A DNA stretch of 64,000 bases from Spongiibacter marinus (GTDB lineage: Bacteria > Pseudomonadota > Gammaproteobacteria > Pseudomonadales > Spongiibacteraceae), in the NCBI RefSeq assembly GCF_016906995.1, contig NZ_JAFBBD010000005.1:1-64000 (forward strand). Reading direction: 5' to 3'. Under the pieces are notes generated by a model, which worked only from the letters and a program-made list of their open reading frames with translations, did not search any database and was not told the DNA's origin. A program made the translations under genes and the position numbers. Shown here piece by piece: positions 41,412 through 64,000 of this stretch (its first letter is position 1; the number at the start of each line of letters is the position of its first letter).

Positions 41412-41696
41412 TGGCTTTTGCTCTCGTCGCGTAAAAACCGCGCATTATAAATCAATTTTCCGGCTCTGCGCGCGTCAATTGGTGGATTATTGAACGAATT
41501 CCTGCGATCGCAGCGCCGGCCCTCGGCAATTCTGCTGCTTTTTGCTGGCCGCTTGCTCCGTCACTGGCATTGGCGCGTAAGCCTGCACATGCTGCGGCGC
41601 ATTTTTTGACGAATTTTGTAACAAAGGCCACGCTTGTGAAACTATGAGCAGAGGCTGCATGTGCCCAGCCGGCTTACGTTTGTAAACAGGATAATT
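41412..41696. other. Divergent purE / arsS spacer
   Basis: 285 bp without a convincing gene. It must hold the promoters of purEK (minus) and arsS-arsM (plus). I see no repeat or clear -35/-10 pair. Confidence 0.4.
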
Positions 41697-42656
41697 ATGC
41701 GAGAGACCCTGCCGCTGTTAGAGCTGACCGAATTCCCCGCCATAGATCGCCACGCTATCGATACCTTACAGGTGAACCTGGGATACAAGTGCAACCAGCG
41801 CTGCCTGCACTGCCACGTGAATGCGGGGCCGACGCGGACCGAGATGATGACCGAGGACAATATTGCCCTGGTGCTCGATGTACTCCGCGCGCGCGATATC
41901 AAGGTGTTGGACCTCACTGGTGGGGCGCCAGAGCTTCACCCGCAATTCCGCGAGCTGGTTGTTAAGGCCAGGGCACTCGGGGTAAAGGTGATTGATCGCT
42001 GTAACCTGACAATTTTGTTTGAGCCGGAGCAGGAAGGGCTGGCCGAGTTTTTGGCAGCCAACGATGTAGAGGTTGTCGCGTCGCTGCCCTGTTATTCAAT
42101 GGAAAATGTCGACGCCCAGCGCGGCGACGGTGTGTTCGATAAAAGTATTGCAGGCCTTCAGACTCTCAACCAATTGGGTTACGGGCAGAGCGGCAGCGGG
42201 CGGGTTCTCAACTTGGTGTACAACCCCCAGGGGCCGGCACTGCCGCCAAATCAGCAGCGCTTGGAGGCCGATTATCGGCGTGAACTCATGGCGCACTTTG
42301 GCATTGTTTTTAACTCGCTGTTTGCGCTGGCCAATATGCCCATTCAGCGCTTCGGCTCCACGCTTATCTCCAAGGGGCAATTCGACGATTACCTCGCACT
42401 GCTAAAAGGCAGCTACAGCGAGGCCAACTTATCGTCGGTGATGTGTCGCAGTCTGGTCAGCGTTGACTGGCAGGGTTACCTGTACGACTGCGACTTTAAC
42501 CAGCAGCTGGGGCTCGGCTTGCCGAGTACCGGTGATCAGCGCGCTGACTTAACGACCCTGCTTTCTACAACGCTGCAAGGGCAGCCAATTCGCGTAGCGG
42601 GGCATTGCTATGGTTGTACAGCGGGGCAGGGCAGCAGTTGCGGTGGGGCATTGTAA
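41697..42656 (+). CDS. arsS: Arsenosugar biosynthesis radical SAM protein ArsS
   Basis: 319 residues from ATG 41697 (AGGA upstream). Radical SAM cysteines are C32-x3-C36-x2-C39 in NLGYKCNQRCLHCH, and further Cys lie in a C-terminal SPASM-like part ending HCYGCTAGQGSSCGG. The GGAPELHPQF loop is the SAM-binding GGE-like motif. ArsS joins S-adenosylmethionine-derived ribose to dimethylarsenite in arsenosugar formation. The next gene, 12 bp on, is an ArsM-type arsenite methyltransferase, exactly the expected partner. The GTG at 41661 is a less likely start. Confidence 0.92.
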   Translation: MRETLPLLELTEFPAIDRHAIDTLQVNLGYKCNQRCLHCHVNAGPTRTEMMTEDNIALVLDVLRARDIKVLDLTGGAPELHPQFRELVVKARALGVKVIDRCNLTILFEPEQEGLAEFLAANDVEVVASLPCYSMENVDAQRGDGVFDKSIAGLQTLNQLGYGQSGSGRVLNLVYNPQGPALPPNQQRLEADYRRELMAHFGIVFNSLFALANMPIQRFGSTLISKGQFDDYLALLKGSYSEANLSSVMCRSLVSVDWQGYLYDCDFNQQLGLGLPSTGDQRADLTTLLSTTLQGQPIRVAGHCYGCTAGQGSSCGGAL

Positions 42657-42668
42657 GGAAATGACACG

Positions 42669-43712
42669 ATGAGCAGTCACGATATTGTTAAAGATTATTA
42701 CGGCAAGCAGCTGCAGAGCTCCGACGACTTAAAGACCAGCGCCTGCTGCGATGCCAGTGCCATGCCCGAGTGGCTCAAGCCGCTGTTGGCCAAGCTGCAT
42801 CCCGAGGTGTTGTCGCGCTACTACGGTTGTGGGCTGGTGTGTCCCACGGAGCTGCGGGGGCGGCGCGTGCTTGATCTGGGCTGCGGCAGCGGCCGCGATG
42901 TCTACGCCCTGGCGCAAATGGTGGGGGCGGAGGGCGAGGTAGTCGGGGTGGATATGACCGACGAGCAGTTAGCGGTCGCGCGCGATACCCAGGCCTGGCA
43001 CGCTGAACAATTCGGCTTTGATAATGTGCGCTTTATCCAAGGCTATATTGAGCGCCTGGACGAATTGGACCTGGAGCCAGCCAGCTTCGACGTGGTGGTA
43101 TCCAATTGCGTGATTAATTTATCACCCGATAAAGCCGCGGTGTTAGCGGGGGTGAAGCGGCTGCTGAAGCCCGGCGGCGAATTCTATTTTTCAGATGTTT
43201 ACGCCAATCGGCGTGTTCCCGAGGCAATGCGCGATGATCCATTGCTCTACGGCGAGTGTTTGGGCGGCGCCCTGTACTGGAACGACTTTGTGCAACTCGC
43301 CAAGGGGCAGGGCTTTACCGACCCGCGGTTAGTCGAAGACCGCCCCTTGGAAATGACCGACCCGGCTGTTGCAGCAAAAACGGCAGGCGTGGAGTTTTTC
43401 TCGGCGACCTATCGTTTGTTCAATCTCGATAATTTGGAAAGCGACTGTGAAGATTACGGCCAGGCGGTTCGCTACCGTGGCAGCATTCGTGAAACGCCGG
43501 TGAACTTTGTCCTCGACAAGCACCATATTATTGAAGTGGGTCGGGTGTTTCCGGTGTGTGGCAATACCTGGCGAATGCTGGCCGACAGCCGTTTTGCCGA
43601 GCACTTTGATTTTTTGGGCGACTTTAGCCGCCACTACGGCATTTTTGAAGGCTGCGGCGTGTCGCTGCCTTTCAGTACGGCTGATGATGACGGCGCCTTG
43701 CCCTGTTGCTGA
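42669..43712 (+). CDS. arsM: Arsenite S-adenosylmethionine methyltransferase
   Basis: 347 residues. ArsM methylates As(III) stepwise. The SAM motif is VLDLGCGSGRDVYALAQMVG. The four conserved cysteines of the family can be placed: ACCDAS near 26, YYGCGL near 54, VVSNCVINLS near 152 and YGECLGG near 202. The C terminus ends DGALPCC, a cysteine pair also seen in many ArsM proteins. It follows arsS by 12 bp, so the pair makes methylated arsenicals and arsenosugars. An aldo/keto reductase follows. Confidence 0.93.
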   Translation: MSSHDIVKDYYGKQLQSSDDLKTSACCDASAMPEWLKPLLAKLHPEVLSRYYGCGLVCPTELRGRRVLDLGCGSGRDVYALAQMVGAEGEVVGVDMTDEQLAVARDTQAWHAEQFGFDNVRFIQGYIERLDELDLEPASFDVVVSNCVINLSPDKAAVLAGVKRLLKPGGEFYFSDVYANRRVPEAMRDDPLLYGECLGGALYWNDFVQLAKGQGFTDPRLVEDRPLEMTDPAVAAKTAGVEFFSATYRLFNLDNLESDCEDYGQAVRYRGSIRETPVNFVLDKHHIIEVGRVFPVCGNTWRMLADSRFAEHFDFLGDFSRHYGIFEGCGVSLPFSTADDDGALPCC

Positions 43713-50529: not shown

Positions 50530-51369
50530 ATGTCTTTCCGCGGTTTAAGAAATGGCCTTGCCCTAAGCGTCTCGCTGGCGGCATCCAGCTTTAGTCATGC
50601 CCAAGCGGCACAAATTCCTGTTCTTGGTGGTCTGCTTACAAGCCTTGGCAGCCTACCTATTATCGGCGCGCTGCCTCTCGATGCATTGATGAATCCCGCT
50701 GCGGGCCTGGATGGCCTGTCTGGCGCAGGCTTGCCAGGTTTAGACGCGCTGCCGCTGCCAGGCTTGGAAGCACTCCCCGATGTACTGGGCAATATTGGTA
50801 GCGGCGGTCTACCCGGCCTGGATTCACTGCCCCTCGTCGGCGTGTTGGGCATAGGTGGTATGGGCGGCGCTGGTGCTGGCGATGTTCCAGGGCTGAGTGA
50901 CCTGTTGGATGCGCTGCCACTGCTGTCATCTGAAACACCGCAATTACCGGGTGTGGATGCCCTGCTGAGTATATTGAATGGCTTGGGCACTGGCGGACTG
51001 CCCGGCGCTGACTTCCTGCCATTGGCGCAGATCGCAGCAGTGGGTACCGGTGACCTGAGTATTCCCGGACTCGACGCGATTATCGATATTCCAGCACTCG
51101 CTGACTACGCGACGCTGGCAAAAGTGGAAATGGCCGTGGGTGCCGTTGAAGGCTTCATCACAGGTGTTGTTGCCGACCCGCAGTCGCTAACGACCATCGG
51201 TTCAGGCCTTGGTCCCGACACGCTGTTTGCTGTTGTCCCCCTGCTGGGTGCCTTAAAAGATGACCCCGCATCGCTGGCCACCTACTTCAGCGACGGCGGC
51301 ACCATTTTAAGCGCCGAAATCGAATTGCTTCCCCCAATTCCAGTGGTCAGCCAGCCGCTGGCACTGTGA
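50530..51369 (+). CDS. Secreted Leu/Gly/Pro-repeat protein, unknown
   Basis: 279 residues. Signal peptide to about HAQA (residue 27). Residues 30-190 are low-complexity and built from imperfect copies of G-(L/I/V)-P-G-(L/V/A)-D-x-L-P-L, e.g. GLPGLDALPLPGLEALP, GLPGLDSLPLVGVLG, DVPGLSDLLDALPLL, QLPGVDALLSILNG, GLPGADFLPLAQI, SIPGLDAIIDIPALA. There are no cysteines and few charges. The C-terminal 85 residues look globular (AKVEMAVGAVEGFITGVVADPQS). I do not recognise the family. A good terminator follows. Nothing nearby explains it. Confidence 0.85.
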   Translation: MSFRGLRNGLALSVSLAASSFSHAQAAQIPVLGGLLTSLGSLPIIGALPLDALMNPAAGLDGLSGAGLPGLDALPLPGLEALPDVLGNIGSGGLPGLDSLPLVGVLGIGGMGGAGAGDVPGLSDLLDALPLLSSETPQLPGVDALLSILNGLGTGGLPGADFLPLAQIAAVGTGDLSIPGLDAIIDIPALADYATLAKVEMAVGAVEGFITGVVADPQSLTTIGSGLGPDTLFAVVPLLGALKDDPASLATYFSDGGTILSAEIELLPPIPVVSQPLAL

Positions 51370-54455: not shown

Positions 54456-56324
54456 ATGATGAAAAACAGAGCGCTGATTATGAGCTCGATGCTGGCCTTT
54501 GGCTTGTCAGCATGTGGCGGCGGTAGTGGTGGTTCGGGCGATGACGCGAACCTGCAGAGTGCCGCGCAGCAAGACGACGCTCAGCAACTGGGCACCTTTG
54601 AAACCTCGGTCTCTGACGACCTGACCGCAGGTGAGCCGATCGACGGTCAATACATTGTGCTGTTGCAAAAAGCAGAAGACAGCTTGCTTGGGGCGCTGCC
54701 TCTGCCGGACCTGGTGGATGAATTGCTCGCGACAGTAGGCGGTCAGCTATTGGGTGTTTATCAAAATGCGGTCAGCGGTTTCGTGGCCAAAATGAGCCCG
54801 GAAGCGGCGGCCTTACTGGCCAAGAATCCCCTGGTAAAACTGGTTGAGCAGGATCAGACCGTCTCAATTGCTGCGGTTCAGAATAACGCGACCTGGGGGC
54901 TGGATCGTGTCGACCAGCCTTCGCTGCCGCTGGATAATCAATACTCTTACAGCGCCGATGGCAGTGGCGTTCACGTTTACATCGTCGATACCGGTATTCG
55001 CAGCAGTCACAATGAGTTCTCCGGCCGCACAGGTGTAGGGCGTAACTTTGCCGCCTCTGGCGGCTTGTTCTTTAGCAGTACGGACCCTGAAGATACCGAT
55101 GACTGTAATGGTCACGGCACCCACGTTGCCGGTACGGCCGCGGGCAGCACCTACGGTGTGGCAAAGGGCGCCACAGTGTATCCGGTGCGTGTACTGGGTT
55201 GTAACGGTTCAGGCAGCAACTCCGGTGTTATTGCCGGTGTGGACTGGGTCGCGGCAAACCATCAAGCGCCAGCGGTTGCCAACATGAGCCTCGGCGGCGG
55301 CAACAGTACCGCTTTGGATGCAGCGGTAAAAGGCGCGATTAATGCGGGCGTTACCTTTGTGGTGGCAGCCGGCAATGACAATACCGACGCCTGTAGCGGT
55401 TCACCTAACCGCGTGGCTGAAGCGGTTACCGTTGGCTCAACAACGTCATCTGATTCGCGTTCTTCCTTCTCCAATAAAGGAAGCTGCGTTGATATCTTTG
55501 CCCCCGGTTCGGCAATCACCTCTGCCTGGTACCAGGGCGATAACGACACTAACACCATCAGCGGCACATCAATGGCTGCGCCACACGTTGCCGGTGCGGC
55601 GGCGTTGATTCTGTCGCAAAACCCTAACGCAGCGCCGGCCAGTGTTTTCAGCACACTATTGCAAGACGGTACCAGCAATAAGTTGAGTGGTCTGGGCAGT
55701 GGCTCTCCCAACCTGCTGCTGCAGGTTGCCCAAGGTGAAGGTGTCGACTTCCCGCCGGTGGCGTCCTTTAGCTATAGCTGTAATGAACTCAGCTGTAGCT
55801 TTGATGCGTCGGCATCGTCTGACGACCAGGGCATTCAGCAGTACAGCTGGAGCTTTGGCGATGGAAGCTCGGCCGCTGGCGCGAGTGTTAGCCATACTTA
55901 TGCAGCCTACGGCGACGTTACCGTTACGCTGACGGTGAGCGACACTGCTGGCCAGCAGGATACAGATAGCCAGCTGCTGAGCCTGCAAGAGCCCGGTGCT
56001 GGTCCCTGTCCTGAGTGTGAGCAAACCAGTGGCACGCTCACTGGCAGCAATGACAATGACTACAGCCCGAGCAGCGGCGGTTTCTCCAGCAATGGTGGCC
56101 AGTTCTATGGTCTGCTAGAGGGCCCTGCAAATGCCGATTTCGATCTCATTCTGGAAAAATATAGCCGTGGCCTGTTTTTCAGCAGTTGGTCGAGCGTGGC
56201 CAGCGGTGAGACGGCGAGCTCAAGCGAAGAAGTGACCTACAACGGCACCAGTGGCACCTACCGCTGGCGTGTGAAGTCATACAGTGGCAGTGGTGATTAC
56301 ACGCTCTACACTGACAATCCCTAA
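54456..56324 (+). CDS. S8 subtilisin-family serine peptidase, lipoprotein
   Basis: 622 residues. Lipobox LSAC (Cys20) then a Gly/Ser linker. Residues 63-140 are an I9 propeptide ([13 protein letters not shown], ending [14 protein letters not shown]). Catalytic triad: Asp178 in [15 protein letters not shown], His220 in [13 protein letters not shown], Ser372 in [15 protein letters not shown]; oxyanion Asn307 in AAGND. Then a PKD domain (about 430-515) and a C-terminal PPC domain ending YTLYTDNP. It should be an outer-membrane-anchored secreted protease that matures by self-cleavage. A terminator follows. Confidence 0.96.
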
Positions 56325-58386: not shown

Positions 58387-58436
58387 TTTTCCTTTCAAAG
58401 ACACCGCTCTTTTCAGTGGCCTTTTCGATGCCTTTG

Positions 58437-58465
58437 CCCCTTTGTCCTCGCGAAGGGGTCTTTTT
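58437..58465 (+). terminator. Terminator after the PF10118 gene
   Basis: CCCCTT and AAGGGG around a 10-base loop, then a TCTTTTT tract, about 50 bp after the stop. Confidence 0.8.
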
Positions 58466-58710: not shown

Positions 58711-59436
58711 ATGGAAAGTGTGTCTGGCCATTTCAATTTGCATAACTTCAAGCGCTATCGCCGCCTGGCGGTGGTGCTGTGCTCGCTTGCCGTCGTGGCG
58801 TGTAGTTCTGACCAGGGGCCATCGGCCGATAGCGAACAAGCCGCAGCGGCAGCTCAGCAACTGCTGGCCAAGGGAGCGGGGGCAGATGGCAAGGCGCTCT
58901 ATCAGGCCTGCGTGGCCTGCCATGGCGATGAGGCACAGGGCAATCAGTCGCTGGGCGCGCCGTCGCTGCGCAACCAGCAGAGCTGGTATTTGACGCGTCA
59001 GTTGCAGGCCTATCGCTCGGGGCTGCGCGGCAGCCATCCTGAAGACAGCTATGGCCAGCAAATGCAGGCAATCGCCAAGACCTTACCCGACAGCGAGGCG
59101 GTCGACGCGGTCGTGACATACATCTCGGCGATGGGAAGTCAGGCGGCAGCGGCGACGCTCAGCGGCGACCTAAAACGCGGCGCCGATTACTACAGCAATC
59201 TGTGTGGTGCCTGTCATGGCCCCGCGGCTGAAGGGATTGAATTGCTGCAAGCGCCTGCTTTGGCGGGGGTTGATGACTGGTATTTGGAGCGTCAATTTAT
59301 TCATTTTCGAGACGGTATTCGCGGTGCGGATGAAGCCGATAAATACGGCTACCAAATGGCGATGATGGCGGATTCCCTGCCAGACGAAGCCGTACTGCGC
59401 GATGTCCTGGCGTATATTCAGTCACTGGCCGACTAG
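58711..59436 (+). CDS. Di-haem cytochrome c lipoprotein
   Basis: 241 residues. The N terminus holds a hydrophobic segment and lipobox-like VVAC (Cys31), so it is likely a lipoprotein. Two cytochrome c domains follow, with CVACH at 67-71 and CGACH at 165-169. Methionine ligands are probably in YGQQMQAIAKTLPD and YGYQMAMMADSLPD, which are tandem copies of the c4/c553-type pattern. The next gene starts 2 bp after its stop, so the proteins are made together. It should pass electrons to or from the di-haem peroxidase beside it. Confidence 0.92.
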   Translation: MESVSGHFNLHNFKRYRRLAVVLCSLAVVACSSDQGPSADSEQAAAAAQQLLAKGAGADGKALYQACVACHGDEAQGNQSLGAPSLRNQQSWYLTRQLQAYRSGLRGSHPEDSYGQQMQAIAKTLPDSEAVDAVVTYISAMGSQAAAATLSGDLKRGADYYSNLCGACHGPAAEGIELLQAPALAGVDDWYLERQFIHFRDGIRGADEADKYGYQMAMMADSLPDEAVLRDVLAYIQSLAD

Positions 59437-59438
59437 CA

Positions 59439-60596
59439 ATGAGTGCTTACACGCGGGCCTTGTTGCCTTGCCTCGTGCTGCTGTTTTATTTGCCGGCTGT
59501 CCACGCTGCGCAAACCTGGAAACTCAATGAATTTTGTCCGGCGGGTTTTACCTTGCGCGATGGCGGCTGCTATTTGCTGAGCTTGTATCGCGATTACCGA
59601 TCGCTGCAAAAAAGTGGTGTGGGCGGACTGAAAACCGGCTTACCCACGCTGCGAGAGGGCTTTAGCCCGCAGCAAATTGACCTCGGCCGCTTGCTGTTCT
59701 TTGACCCGGTGCTGTCGGGTAATCACCAGTTGAGCTGTGCCTCCTGTCACGATCCGAGTAAGGGGTTTGCCGATGGACGTGGACTGAGCATTGGCGCCGG
59801 AGGGCAGCTTGCCAAGCGATCGGCGCCGAGTTTGTGGAATGTCGGTTTTCTTAAGCGCTTGTTCTGGGATGTCAGGGCAGACTCGCTGGAGGCGCAAATG
59901 CAGGGCCCCCTTTACGACCCGGTGGAGATGGCGAACAGCCCGGCACAACTGCTGGCCGATCTTCGCGCCTCGGCGCATTACCCCGCGCTATTTGCCGAGG
60001 CCTTCGGTGGTGATGCATCGATTCAGTTGGATCAGATATACACCGCGATTGCCGCTTTTGAGTCTTCCCTGGTGTCGTTAAACAGCCGTTACGACCTCTA
60101 CGCCCACGGCTATCACGATGTTCTCAACGCCCAGGAAATTGAGGGGATGAACATCTTTCGCTCGTTTGTGGCGCGCTGCGCGGAGTGCCACACCCCGCCG
60201 CTGTTTACTAACCAGCAGGTTGCGGTACTGGGGACGCCAGAGCCGGACGGGCGAGCACTTGACCCCGGCGTGCAGGGCGTGACCGGTGACGCGTCGCAGC
60301 GTGGCGGCTTTAAAGTGCCCTCGTTGCGCAATGTTGCGCTGACGGCGCCCTATATGCACTCGGGGCGTTTTGCCACGCTGCGCGATGCCACGGCGTTTTA
60401 TAACGGCGGACGGGGACACGCTGTACCCGCCGGCGAGAAGCTCAGCCTGCACTGGCATATTTGGGAGCCGAATCTCACCGATGAGGAGCTGGATCGCCTC
60501 GTCGACTTTATGAAAACACTGACTGACGAAAGCTATATGCCGACACTGCCCGAACGCGTGCCGTCAGGGCTGACGCCAGTATTGGGAAGCCATTGA
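59439..60596 (+). CDS. Di-haem cytochrome c peroxidase/MauG-family protein
   Basis: 385 residues with a signal peptide (to VHAA). Two haem motifs are CASCH (100-104) and CAECH (247-251). The bacterial CCP/MauG fold is shown by RLLFFDPVLSGNHQLSCASCHDPSKGFADGRGLSIG, SAPSLWNVGFLKRLFWDVRADSLEAQMQGPLYDP and FKVPSLRNVALTAPYMHSGRFATLRDATAFYNGG. Such enzymes reduce H2O2 or modify a partner protein by long-range oxidation. The N-terminal 50 residues contain an extra pair of Cys (EFCPAGFTLRDGGCY). Part of the exported haem module. Confidence 0.93.
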   Translation: MSAYTRALLPCLVLLFYLPAVHAAQTWKLNEFCPAGFTLRDGGCYLLSLYRDYRSLQKSGVGGLKTGLPTLREGFSPQQIDLGRLLFFDPVLSGNHQLSCASCHDPSKGFADGRGLSIGAGGQLAKRSAPSLWNVGFLKRLFWDVRADSLEAQMQGPLYDPVEMANSPAQLLADLRASAHYPALFAEAFGGDASIQLDQIYTAIAAFESSLVSLNSRYDLYAHGYHDVLNAQEIEGMNIFRSFVARCAECHTPPLFTNQQVAVLGTPEPDGRALDPGVQGVTGDASQRGGFKVPSLRNVALTAPYMHSGRFATLRDATAFYNGGRGHAVPAGEKLSLHWHIWEPNLTDEELDRLVDFMKTLTDESYMPTLPERVPSGLTPVLGSH

Positions 60597-60637
60597 TAGC
60601 AATCAATGCCTGGGTAGAAAACCTAAGGAGCAGAACC

Positions 60638-62035
60638 ATGAAAAAGCCCGTTGCCAAGTTGGCGCTATGGCTGTGTTTGTTAATCACTTCAGGCGCGGCC
60701 ATTGCCGCCGAGCTTGCCGTGAAAGATGGCCAATCTATTCAGGAGGCAGTGAACGCGGCTGCGCCTGGGGATGTGATTTTAATTCACCCCGGTACATACA
60801 AAGAAAGCGTCTATATCGATAAGGACAATATCACCCTGCGAGGCGTGGTGGTTGAGGGGGAGTGGCCGGTACTCGACGGCGAGCACAAACGCAATGACGC
60901 GATTTTGTACTCCGGTAACGACGTTACCGTAGAGTGGCTGACCATTAAGCATTACAAAGGCAATGCCATTATGGGGCAGGCCGGTAATAACTACATCATC
61001 CGCTATAACCGGGTTATCGATACCGGCGTCTACGGCATATTCCCTCAGTTCGGTAAAAACGGCCTGATTGAATACAACGTGCTCAGTGGCATCGAGGATG
61101 CGGCGATCTACGTTGGCATGTGTGACAACGTCGTGGTTCGCCACAATGAAGTGTTTGACAACGTGGCGGGGATTGAAATTGAAAACACCCGGCATGCGAT
61201 TGTCGAAAACAATTATGCTCACAACAATACGGCAGGTCTGCTGGTATTCATTACCCCTGGCTTACCGATTAAAACTGCCTACGATGTGATTCTGCGCGAC
61301 AACTTTGTGGTGAATAACAATACCGAAAATTTTGGTGCGCCGGGCTCGATTGTTGCCAAGGTGCCGCGCGGTATCGGTGTGGTTATCATGGCGGCGGATG
61401 ATGTGATCGTCGAGGGTAATATCATTTCTGGTAACACGACGGCGGGTATCGTAATTACCGATCTCGGCTTTGTTACCGATATTGCTTCCGACCCCGAATC
61501 TGAGCCGAACCCGGATCGTATCGCCATTCTCGATAATCTAATGTATGACAACGGCACCGACCCTGTTCCCGAAATTAAAGCGGCCATGCTCACGCAATTC
61601 ACCCGCCGTGGCCCGGATGTTTTTGCCAATATCGGTTCTGCTCAAGAGCCGGATAACTGCATCTTGCAAAAAGAACAGTACATCACCTTTGGCCTAAAGA
61701 AATGGAGCAAGTGCGAGCGAACCAATACGCACGATATTGATACCTACCTGCTTGCTGATGGTGCACCGCCACGAGAAATCGAAAATGATGAGGACCGTAC
61801 TAAGCGGCTTTATCAAGGTATTTGTGCGGGGTGTCACGCCTACAATATGCGGATGATTGGGCCGCCCACGCTGGCGATCCAAGCCCTGTACCACAAGAAC
61901 CCAGAGGGCATTGCCAATTATATTGCTGACCCGCACAAGATTCGCCCGGATTATCCGCCTATGCCAACTCAGTCGCATCTATCGGAAGAGTTAAGGCGCA
62001 AAGTGGCAGAATATATGCTAGAGATTGAGAAATAA
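60638..62035 (+). CDS. Parallel beta-helix protein with C-terminal cytochrome c domain
   Basis: 465 residues from ATG 60638, preceded by AAGGAG. Signal peptide to AAIAAEL. Residues 30-330 form a right-handed beta helix of CASH/NosD type, with many N-x-I/V steps (DNITLRGVVVEG, NNYIIRYNRVIDT, DNVVVRHNEVFDNVAGIEIENT, DDVIVEGNIISGNTTAGI). The C terminus is a mono-haem cytochrome c: CAGCH at 396-400 and Met in YPPMPTQ. This fusion is unusual. It may present or bind a polysaccharide or other ligand and deliver electrons to it, using the two upstream haem proteins. Confidence 0.93.
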   Translation: MKKPVAKLALWLCLLITSGAAIAAELAVKDGQSIQEAVNAAAPGDVILIHPGTYKESVYIDKDNITLRGVVVEGEWPVLDGEHKRNDAILYSGNDVTVEWLTIKHYKGNAIMGQAGNNYIIRYNRVIDTGVYGIFPQFGKNGLIEYNVLSGIEDAAIYVGMCDNVVVRHNEVFDNVAGIEIENTRHAIVENNYAHNNTAGLLVFITPGLPIKTAYDVILRDNFVVNNNTENFGAPGSIVAKVPRGIGVVIMAADDVIVEGNIISGNTTAGIVITDLGFVTDIASDPESEPNPDRIAILDNLMYDNGTDPVPEIKAAMLTQFTRRGPDVFANIGSAQEPDNCILQKEQYITFGLKKWSKCERTNTHDIDTYLLADGAPPREIENDEDRTKRLYQGICAGCHAYNMRMIGPPTLAIQALYHKNPEGIANYIADPHKIRPDYPPMPTQSHLSEELRRKVAEYMLEIEK

Positions 62036-62065
62036 GAGATTGAGAAGTAAGAGATTAAAAAGTAA
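62021..62065 (+). repeat. 15-bp tandem repeat carrying stop codons
   Basis: Three copies of GAGATTGAGAAATAA (62021-62035, 62036-62050, 62051-62065), the second and third with one and three changes. The first copy is the last five codons and stop of the beta-helix gene, so the frame meets two further stops in tandem. Confidence 0.85.
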
Positions 62066-62173
62066 GAGGTAAACGATCGAGGCTTGTGAGTTGTGACGGC
62101 GTCGCCAGAACGCCGCTCTTCTTTTCGAATGCAAGCCGCCGCGCAGCATGGTGAGAAGCGAAGAGGGTAAAGC

Positions 62174-64000
62174 ATGAAGGCAGGGCATCGAGCGCGAATA
62201 GGCGCAGCAATCGCCGCGACCGTAGTGGCAACAGGCGCGCAGGCGGCAAACAACCTCGCCCTAGAGGAAGTTTTGGTCACCGCGCAGAAGCGGGAGCAGA
62301 GTGCCATGACGGTGCCGGTAACCGTGGATACCTTCAGTACCCAGGATCTGGAAAATACCGGGGCCTTAACCATGACCGACATTCAAGCCTATATTCCAGG
62401 CTTGAAAGTGGGGACTAACATTCAGGATGCTGGCGGTGTTACCCAGTCCTCTTTTGTGATCCGCGGTATTGAAAGCTCTAATATCAGTACCGGTGGCGAC
62501 CCCTCTGTCGCCACATTCTTGGATGGTGTCTACCTTCCTCGCGCGGCGATAACGGTGCCATTTTCAGATATGGACCGTGTCGAGGTTTTGAAAGGCCCGC
62601 AGGGCACGCTGTTCGGGCGTAATGCCGCAGCAGGCGTGGTCAGCTTCGTTTCCAACCTTCCCGACCTTGAGGCGCGCGAGGGCTTTCTCTCCGCGAAACT
62701 CGGGAATTACGGCCTCGTTCGCATTGAGGGCATGGGGAATGTGCCGCTGAGCGATAATCTGGCTTTGCGGGTCAATGTGCTGCACAACCAGCGTGATGCC
62801 GTGGTCGACAATAAGGGGCCATCGCGGCCAGACCCGCGAGAGCAGGATAACCAATTCGCCAAAGTATCACTGTTGTGGCAGGCCAGTGATCGGCTGCGTA
62901 TGCAGCTGTCTGCCGATTACGACAAGGTCGATAACGGCCCGCAGGCGATGATGGGAATTAGCGAGCAATACGCGGATTTTCCCGACCCAACGGATAGAAA
63001 AGTCAGTACCGATGCGCGCAAGCCCGGTGAGCGTCGCGATATGTACGGCGTGGTTGGCAAACTCTGGTTTGATGTGAACGATGCCAGTACCTTAAGCCTG
63101 ATCGCTAGCCATCGCGAATTTGAAACCTATAACTTGCAAGATGAAGACGGTACTGCCGTTGAAGATGTTTATGTAGATACCAACAACGTCGAAGACTCCG
63201 ATATCAGCTATCTCGAAGCGCAGCTCAATATCGCTCTGGAAAATGTCGATATGGTTTTCGGTGTTAACTACAGCACCGAAGATACCTACCAGCTCACCGC
63301 GTTAACCTTTAGTTACGGCGCCGTCGTCGAGCTGGCCTCCGACATGTTGGGCCTGCCCGCCAACGTGCTCAACTCGTTAATCGGAGGGGTGATTGCCGGT
63401 AATTATGTTACCGAGACGATGACCAATATCGGTGACTTTGAAAACTACGGCGTTTACTCAGACGTCGATTTTACGGTGACGGACCGGCTGAATATTCTAG
63501 CCGGTTTGCGCTACAGCAAAGATGACAAGCAGTTCAGCTGGGATGCGCCGCTTACTGATTTCCCGCTGTCGCAATTACAAGGGGAAAACTTTTTCTTCAA
63601 CACCAATGGTGTTGAGCGTGCCAGCGAAAGCTGGGACAAAATTACCGGCCGCCTGGTGGCGAACTATCAGCTGGCCGAGGGAGCGATGGCCTTCGCCAGT
63701 TACTCTACGGGTTACAAGTCTGGTGGCTACGACTCGTTAAACCCCGGCTCGGGGGATGTTCCTCTGGAACCAGAGGTCGTTAATAACTATGAGCTGGGGA
63801 TAAAAGGCGACTTTTTAGCCACGACGATTCGAACGCAGTTGGCGTTATTCCAAATGACCATCGACGACCGTCAGGAGGCTATTGAGTCGCAGCAGCCGGG
63901 CAGTGGCGCGGCAGTGCCGACGGTGATTAACACTGATGAAGATATCAGTGGTGTCGAGCTGACCTTAGATTGGTTGGTCACCGAGTCGCTCCGCTTTGGC
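62174..64000 (+). CDS. TonB-dependent receptor (partial, runs off the window)
   Basis: 609 codons are visible and the frame is still open at the right edge. Signal peptide to TGAQAAN, TonB box-like LEEVLVTAQKREQSA, plug with SFVIRGIESSNIST, VATFLDGVYLPRA and VEVLKGPQGTLFGRNAAAGVV, then barrel strands (AFASYSTGYKSGGYDS). It lies 138 bp after the beta-helix cytochrome gene. It is the outer-membrane import gate that completes the exported haem module. Ligand unknown. Confidence 0.92.
   Translation, partial: MKAGHRARIGAAIAATVVATGAQAANNLALEEVLVTAQKREQSAMTVPVTVDTFSTQDLENTGALTMTDIQAYIPGLKVGTNIQDAGGVTQSSFVIRGIESSNISTGGDPSVATFLDGVYLPRAAITVPFSDMDRVEVLKGPQGTLFGRNAAAGVVSFVSNLPDLEAREGFLSAKLGNYGLVRIEGMGNVPLSDNLALRVNVLHNQRDAVVDNKGPSRPDPREQDNQFAKVSLLWQASDRLRMQLSADYDKVDNGPQAMMGISEQYADFPDPTDRKVSTDARKPGERRDMYGVVGKLWFDVNDASTLSLIASHREFETYNLQDEDGTAVEDVYVDTNNVEDSDISYLEAQLNIALENVDMVFGVNYSTEDTYQLTALTFSYGAVVELASDMLGLPANVLNSLIGGVIAGNYVTETMTNIGDFENYGVYSDVDFTVTDRLNILAGLRYSKDDKQFSWDAPLTDFPLSQLQGENFFFNTNGVERASESWDKITGRLVANYQLAEGAMAFASYSTGYKSGGYDSLNPGSGDVPLEPEVVNNYELGIKGDFLATTIRTQLALFQMTIDDRQEAIESQQPGSGAAVPTVINTDEDISGVELTLDWLVTESLRFG

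Follow-up and report, generated by a model that had tools for sequence, protein, structure and literature searches.

The window analysed here is a stretch of 64,000 nucleotides from Spongiibacter marinus (assembly GCF_016906995.1, contig NZ_JAFBBD010000005.1, hereafter C5; the host genome comprises 3.57 Mb). Its last part, 58711-64000, is filled by four co-directional genes on the + strand with exported products: a di-haem cytochrome c (CytC2), a MauG-like di-haem enzyme, a beta-helix protein with a cytochrome c tail (BHcyt) and a TonB-dependent receptor (Table 1). The first-pass annotation of this DNA had pointed to these four consecutive genes for exported or outer-membrane proteins, with the second starting 2 bp after the end of the first, and the coordinates, domains and CxxCH motifs were all confirmed; export signals and signal peptides were read by eye from the sequence. 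The first three genes are a widespread module whose co-occurrence is beyond chance.

Table 1. Features of the BHcyt locus and its flanks, with the evidence for each
Feature	Coordinates	Strand	Evidence
CytC2, exported di-haem class I cytochrome c, lipoprotein here	58711..59436	+	Pfam, CxxCH positions, homologue upstream of BHcyt in 62/73 loci
MauG-like di-haem enzyme	59439..60596	+	Pfam, NCBIfam, alignments, AlphaFold model, Foldseek matches to bacterial cytochrome c peroxidases, MbnH and MauG
BHcyt: signal peptide, right-handed beta-helix, C-terminal mono-haem class I cytochrome c	60638..62035	+	Pfam, NCBIfam, AlphaFold, alignments
TonB-dependent receptor, accessory, 756 amino acids	62174..64000, continuing to C5:64444	+	Pfam, linked homologues
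Terminator-like hairpin, 10-bp stem and T run, between PF10118 gene and module	58436..58459	+	Hairpin scan
Weak terminator-like hairpin between BHcyt and TonB receptor	62097..62115	+	At shuffle-expected level

CytC2 (241 amino acids) matches Cytochrom_C (PF00034, 2e-22) in two stretches, has CxxCH motifs at residues 67 and 165 (58909-58923 and 59203-59217) and starts with a lipobox, LAVVAC, read from the sequence. The MauG-like enzyme (385 amino acids) matches CCP_MauG (PF03150, 4e-55), with CxxCH at residues 100 and 247 (59736-59750 and 60177-60191). The open frame of the third gene begins with TTG at 60593 and its signal peptide, by eye, with ATG at 60638, so that BHcyt comprises 465 amino acids; it is 99% identical to the homologue in Neomelitea salexigens DSM 19753 (family Spongiibacteraceae). 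BHcyt matches Beta_helix (PF13229, 3.1e-17) and, at its C terminus, a CBB3-type cytochrome domain (1.3e-5; 25.9 bits, just below Pfam's 27). Its CxxCH at residues 396-400 (61823-61837) is followed by Met442 (61961-61963), and all 80 fetched relatives keep CxxCH and, further on, 'MP'. In the AlphaFold model (predicted local distance difference test score, pLDDT, 89), a right-handed beta-helix occupies residues 25-303 (about 60710-61546) and the cytochrome helices residues 384-462 (about 61787-62023).

The GTDB species genomes (84,980 by the tool's description) were scanned with two peptide patterns, a procedure that favours near relatives, and the best 80 of the 339 BHcyt relatives found were kept (loci L041-L120). 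Wherever the flank reaches 1.4 kb or more (74 of 74 loci), a MauG-like gene is encoded on the same strand no further than 2 kb upstream of BHcyt; the other 6 loci, whose flanks are shorter, were left out of the count. Flanks of 2.2 kb or more are available for 73 loci, 62 of which have a CytC2 homologue upstream of BHcyt; the 11 loci without a match are all Bacteroidota by title, 7 of them in Flavobacteriaceae, and may hold a more distant cytochrome. Across these 62 loci, mean pairwise identity is 0.60 for BHcyt and 0.64 for the MauG-like enzyme, versus 0.41 for CytC2. The lipid anchor that the first-pass annotation gave to CytC2 is present here, and it is not general among the homologues: a simple lipobox pattern finds it in 25 of 63, an undercount in that the pattern overlooks even the near-identical L041 (long reading-frame start), and many of the other misses are, by eye, plain soluble signal peptides.

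A second sample consisted of 194 genomes drawn from the order and shares its nearest members with the first. BHcyt (E<=1e-100) was detected in 30 genomes and the MauG-like protein (E<=1e-80) in 29, thresholds that differ and leave weaker CCP relatives uncounted; comparison of the tables by hand placed all 29 MauG-like genes beside BHcyt on the same contig and strand, with none lacking BHcyt at these thresholds. One of these genomes (G203) has a gap of 1.2 kb between the two genes, room for another gene, as in Ruegeria; the thirtieth BHcyt genome (G076) is incomplete (83%), and its BHcyt, matched without the first 49 residues, is probably located at a contig end. By title, the tree, with 80 rows from 79 loci and Ruegeria, includes 52 Pseudomonadota, 22 Bacteroidota, 2 Fidelibacterota, 1 Myxococcota and 3 rows with no group; Bacteroidota and Fidelibacterota form one branch (98/98), and several rows are metagenome bins. 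The Ruegeria pomeroyi megaplasmid carries a more distant version in the order cytochrome, peroxidase-like protein, tetratricopeptide repeat (TPR) protein and BHcyt, with a divergent AraC gene.

Within the MauG-like enzyme, Tyr321 (60399-60401) is the predicted ligand of the six-coordinate haem. Bacterial cytochrome c peroxidases (bCCPs) carry a Met ligand on the electron-donating haem; here this Met is absent, the aligned position being Tyr in 73 of 73 sequences (the window and 72 relatives, after 6 of 78 rows that were cut or had unread bases were dropped). Tyr321 is aligned to the Tyr of MbnH, to the Met of MacA and to chain position 294, that is, the MauG ligand Tyr294, in three of the four MauG chains listed, with an offset of six in the other one. 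The six-coordinate haem of MauG has Tyr-His ligation and the same Tyr occurs in BthA, which is reported to reduce H2O2 efficiently despite this Tyr (PMC6405878), so the Tyr ligand by itself does not exclude a peroxidase. Also constant are a segment with Cys33 and Cys44 that precedes the CCP domain and the run His338-Trp339-His340-Ile341. When the C-terminal 104 residues are compared separately, MauG (8e-14) and MbnH (1e-13) are the best matches, followed by BthA (1e-10), with bCCPs at 1e-7 or worse. The AlphaFold model (pLDDT 81) is matched by bCCPs, MbnH and MauG, with a slight lead for bCCPs, and the fold therefore does not decide the enzyme class.

BHcyt passes the TIGR03805 cut-off (215.9 vs 141.5 bits), a family that NCBIfam names by fold alone, 'parallel beta-helix domain-containing protein'; the first-pass annotation, which membership of a characterised family with a different role would have refuted, therefore stands on this point. 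The idea of a surface system that oxidises an extracellular polymer and imports the product fared less well. The top six Foldseek matches are alginate epimerases and lyases at 14-17% identity and a template modelling (TM) score of about 0.5, generic similarities of a kind that a right-handed beta-helix of any function could give, and the sequence search of PDB returned a single match, a small cytochrome (E 0.002). NosD (TIGR04247) was not reached either (63.8 vs 300 bits), and we rejected both the copper/NosD and the polysaccharide-lyase readings of the helix, the similarity being that of generic beta-helices. Over a set of 59 sequences, that of the window and those of 58 among the 80 loci, invariant positions concentrate on the third, long strand of each helix turn and in the loop that follows. 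Judging by strand alternation in the model, a conserved face made up of Tyr132, Phe135, Asp154, Tyr158, Glu180, Glu182 and Asn183 would point outward.

The family also has members without a MauG-like neighbour. For comparison we used 23 non-BHcyt TIGR03805 proteins from the order, those with a locus among 29 such rows; poorly aligned rows were left in (the reading frame taken for L142 has 49 amino acids). A partner with two CxxCH motifs accompanies 18 of these 23 proteins, fused in 5 and encoded in the downstream open reading frame (ORF) in 13; of the remainder, 2 have one CxxCH and 3 have none (one cut at a contig end). The MauG-less proteins retain Tyr132, Phe/Tyr135, Pro136, Asp154, Tyr158, Gly160, Glu180, Glu182 and Asn183 in 18-21 of 23. 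Beside this shared site, in contrast, Met112 and Met161 are found in 59/59 BHcyt and in 0/23 MauG-less proteins, which have Lys/Arg at 112 (18/23) and Gln at 161 (19/23), and Lys212 is likewise found in 59/59 versus 3/23. The patterns used in the genome scan span Tyr132-Gln137 and Tyr158-Asn164, so that invariance there could be an artefact; as a control we took 20 BHcyt sequences found by whole-protein search plus Ruegeria. Met112, Tyr132, Phe135, Pro136, Asp154, Tyr158, Met161, Glu180, Glu182, Asn183 and Lys212 are present in all 21, whereas Met251, invariant in the first set (59/59), is kept in 18 of 21 and is not claimed. All 20 control BHcyt also match the first pattern, and Tyr132-Gln137 is constant either way.

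The same genome encodes a MauG-less relative on contig C1 (L123:7131-10193), a TIGR03805-TIGR03806 fusion of 1020 amino acids with a lipoprotein-like start; its neighbours encode an AlkB-like protein, an AraC protein and a TonB receptor. NCBIfam describes TIGR03805 and TIGR03806 as a gene pair of unknown function. The two-CxxCH part of the fusion scores below the TIGR03806 cut-off and is the sole match to that model in the genome at E<=0.001 (C1:248262-249365), with none at the BHcyt locus; TIGR03806 is confirmed by model only in a Novosphingobium pair and in this fusion. The alkane-hydroxylase-like neighbour (PF00487) contains the motif NYxEHYGL, which we take to be that of AlkB. As a guide to function, the AlkB link was dropped: among 21 family genomes, an AlkB homologue adjoins the fusion relative only in the host genome (G000) and its near twin G011, and in the other family genomes with both, the coordinates do not meet. 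For this comparison fusion relatives were taken from frames of 1020-1206 amino acids, and TIGR03806 itself was tested only in G000.

Of the four-gene co-occurrence proposed at first pass, the part concerning the first three genes stands, and the TonB receptor is a recurrent accessory, not core of the module. The window receptor has both domains of TonB-dependent receptors (Plug, PF07715, 2.8e-19; barrel, PF00593, 8.7e-31), and its gene ends 444 bp beyond the window (L002:175-2445). Of the 57 loci whose flanks cover 7 kb or more upstream and 4 kb or more downstream, 23 contain a homologue there. Homologues of at least 41% identity adjoin the module in 21 of the 80 loci: directly downstream in 15, from Spongiibacteraceae (L041-L052, L054, L056, L060), and upstream, with a regulator gene between, in 6, from alteromonads (L083, L090, L099, L112, L117, L120). 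Six more loci have weak homologues at 26-31%, three of them 8-11 kb away. In whole-genome searches of 5 of the 6 alteromonad-type genomes, the linked receptor was the best match in 5/5 (38-46% by piece, the next at 25-30%; coordinates compared by hand), even though it lies on the opposite side of the module. The nearest receptor homologue of HTCC2148 and Pseudomaricurvus (L089, L116) is elsewhere in the genome, and the Halieaceae, Pseudomonas and Microbulbifer loci have no homologue of the window receptor within flanks of up to 10 kb, where other receptor types are possible. SusC/SusD receptors adjoin the module in four loci (L086, L087, L092, L103; Pfam was run on a single SusC and a single SusD, and clustering assigned the others), and Plug proteins adjoin it in L081, L102, L108 and L057. 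Some Bacteroidota thus have another TonB or SusC/SusD receptor next to the module, whereas in many further loci no receptor is seen. No receptor ligand can be inferred because the PDB matches are weak and mostly confined to the plug (the best being the pesticin receptor, 1.6e-19, residues 33-197).

The hairpin upstream of CytC2 suggests that the module is a transcription unit of its own; the support comes from the stem length alone, since the 4 hairpin sites found in the region are not above the shuffle mean of 4.7. Given the weak hairpin downstream of BHcyt, the receptor may be only partly co-transcribed with it. We rejected as module parts the AraC regulator and PF10118 hydrolase genes, which lie across the upstream hairpin; of the 80 loci, L041, which has nearly the same sequence as the window, is the only one in which the two genes flank the module, and in L047 they are 7-8 kb away. 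Elsewhere, the regulators directly upstream are AraC-type in alteromonads and LytTR in Bacteroidota (Pfam on L112, L083 and L102, the rest by clustering). The metallophosphoesterase gene downstream of the receptor (L002:2518-4041) was left out as well, being beside the module only in L041. The first-pass annotation had proposed a look downstream for permeases or ligand-specific enzymes, and none recurs at a fixed place among the neighbour clusters identified, which are not all clusters. Genes for a glycyl radical enzyme, an oxidoreductase dependent on flavin adenine dinucleotide (FAD), GH3, DUF3604, an aldehyde dehydrogenase and a short-chain dehydrogenase/reductase (SDR) each lie near a few modules with no common theme, and we discarded them as clues to the substrate; the SDR genes occupy scattered places in 15 loci.

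Several other features were seen in passing. Two Bacteroidota bins, L066 (by Pfam) and L084 (by likeness), have the glycyl radical enzyme gene downstream of the module, in L066 with an activase-like gene in front of it. An S8 subtilase with a PKD domain is encoded at 54456-56324, and eight loci have a relative of this gene upstream of CytC2 (by clustering, with Pfam on L044), often with DUF2804. At L002:5039-9186 (C5:67038-71185), a large ORF contains 15.4 copies of a 159-bp tandem repeat (53 amino acids, cysteine-containing) with 81% matches; the array (L002:6650-9111) is covered by two overlapping ORFs (to 8611 and from 8566), which implies frame changes within it. A Radical-SAM-like protein followed by a methyltransferase-like protein at 41661-43712 presumably resembles the arsS/arsM arsenosugar pair. 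The product of 50530-51369 has a signal-like start and, by eye, imperfect repeats rich in Leu, Gly and Pro. PADLOC returned no match.

We tentatively favour the view that a dedicated MauG/MbnH-like enzyme matures or oxidises a constant haem-tailed partner, BHcyt, that is usually served by CytC2. The enzyme is read as acting on, or together with, BHcyt because it was never seen without BHcyt in these samples, and maturation is favoured because of the analogy to MauG and the mto operon. All parts, to judge from their signal sequences, would be exported to the periplasm or the outer membrane, and the conserved face of the beta-helix may bind a ligand or form an active site. With peroxide or oxygen and its Tyr-ligated haem, the MauG-like enzyme would oxidise BHcyt or something held on that face; this would most likely be a single maturation event of BHcyt, comparable to what MauG does to methylamine dehydrogenase. 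The finished BHcyt would be a periplasmic oxidoreductase that hands its electrons, via the Met-ligated haem of its tail, to CytC2 and from there to respiration; in the several lineages where linkage is seen, an outer-membrane TonB or SusC/D receptor might handle the substrate or product. A bolder version, which we consider rather unlikely, is that BHcyt represents a new class of MauG-type partner found in several phyla, in which a non-Trp protein-derived modification (for example, of Met112, Met161 or a neighbouring Tyr) turns a polysaccharide-enzyme-like beta-helix scaffold into a redox enzyme.

Several results weigh against the maturation of BHcyt by a MauG-type enzyme. The enzyme misses the cut-offs for both MauG (TIGR03791, 167.9 vs 443.85 bits) and MbnH (TIGR04039, 227.8 vs 362.85 bits), the latter being the highest-scoring curated family. 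The chemistry of MbnH acts on Trp. That of MauG does so too, as stated in one study (PMC6405878). Among the 59 BHcyt sequences and 21 more, no Trp is invariant (in the best column, Trp76, 53 of 80 rows have Trp), and the known Trp chemistry therefore does not carry over, though residues other than Trp may be the targets. The surface site is kept in proteins without MauG, mostly with another cytochrome partner, and can thus serve without MauG, and the pair does not stand out in the distance correlations (0.69 for BHcyt-MauG, compared with 0.73 for BHcyt-CytC2 and 0.72 for MauG-CytC2). Finally, whole-protein PDB matches are led by two bCCP entries, with MbnH third, and those to bCCPs are strong (MacA, 1.6e-46), bCCPs match the model slightly better than MbnH and MauG in Foldseek (rank 1), and a Nitrosomonas enzyme comes first in the profile search. 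These last results are what would be expected if the di-haem protein were a bCCP that reduces periplasmic peroxide with CytC2 and the haem tail of BHcyt as donors, and indeed CytC2 looks like a donor cytochrome and the example of BthA makes a Tyr-ligated haem compatible with this activity (PMC6405878). We nevertheless regard such a function as unlikely: the position of the bCCP Met ligand is invariably Tyr, and for an enzyme that detoxifies peroxide, a strict association with a beta-helix partner (29/29) would be surprising.

Alternatively, the enzyme could itself oxygenate or peroxygenate a small or polymeric substrate, like the fatty-acid di-haem CCPs of Pseudomonas aeruginosa or the rubber oxygenase RoxA, with BHcyt holding the substrate and feeding electrons and the TonB receptor importing the product; this strikes us as somewhat doubtful. 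Exported CCP-superfamily oxygenases that act on lipids exist, TonB or SusC/D receptors adjoin the module in several lineages and the helix face is conserved in the manner of a ligand site; however, the fatty-acid enzymes have 624-634 amino acids compared with 385 here (PMC4496055), none of the genes nearby was recognised as a lipid or polymer gene in a fixed position, and the AlkB neighbour of the related fusion is limited to the host genome and its twin. MbnH, which is among the nearest solved relatives, brings to mind metal handling of the MbnH/MbnP kind, in which the enzyme would equip BHcyt with a site for copper or another metal, and a metal complex would be taken up by the TonB receptor. 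In methanobactin loci, TonB receptors accompany genes of the MbnH type; in addition, Met112 and Met161 set the MauG-paired branch apart and the helix has a weak NosD similarity, but the latter is far below the cut-off, the two Met are about two helix turns apart by sequence register, which makes a shared metal site doubtful, and no copper chaperone or transporter was recognised among the annotated neighbours, where none was searched for. Metal handling thus appears quite improbable. Maturation of BHcyt by its MauG-like neighbour remains the reading that we favour.

To our knowledge, few protein partners of MauG-type di-haem enzymes are known. Here a partner is predictable from sequence alone, being adjacent in every locus with enough flank in records titled as four phyla, and the question of what uncharacterised CCP_MauG proteins act on becomes directly testable. 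The parts are of known kinds, and the first-pass annotation had known of no described pathway with this set: in listings of open-licence papers we recognised no description of it, and the constant combination and the branch-specific residues are undescribed as far as searched. One paper, on a Shewanella electron-transfer network (PMC4837345), contains SO2930 once. With MauG (TIGR03791) the enzyme shares the di-haem CCP_MauG fold, the Tyr at the position of Tyr294 and a gene beside that of one exported partner; it differs in scoring far below the cut-off, in its extra Cys33/Cys44 segment and in a beta-helix partner without an invariant Trp. No mau genes were recognised by eye among the ORFs read, no dedicated search for them being made. 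MbnH (TIGR04039) is aligned over the CCP part and has the same Tyr position, but its cut-off is missed and no MbnP-type match is found among the Pfam and NCBIfam matches of the window genes. In the mtoX-SCO1-mauG operon of methanethiol oxidase, a mauG-like gene likewise lies beside one catalytic protein, for which the tryptophan tryptophylquinone (TTQ) cofactor itself is proposed; the partner there is SBP56 with the copper chaperone SCO1, and here it is a beta-helix with cytochromes (PMC5739008). BthA, the fatty-acid di-haem CCPs (PA2077/PA2078) and RoxA belong to the same superfamily and perform chemistry beyond or beside that of classic bCCPs, yet the available texts mention no beta-helix partner for them, and the fatty-acid enzymes are much larger (PMC6405878, PMC4496055). 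The systems of TIGR03805 with TIGR03806 or SO2930-family two-haem cytochromes share the beta-helix family and surface site of BHcyt; they have no fused mono-haem tail and carry Lys/Arg at 112 and Gln at 161, whereas BHcyt has the haem tail and Met at both positions, and the pairing with a MauG-like enzyme gives a lead on the TIGR03805 family.

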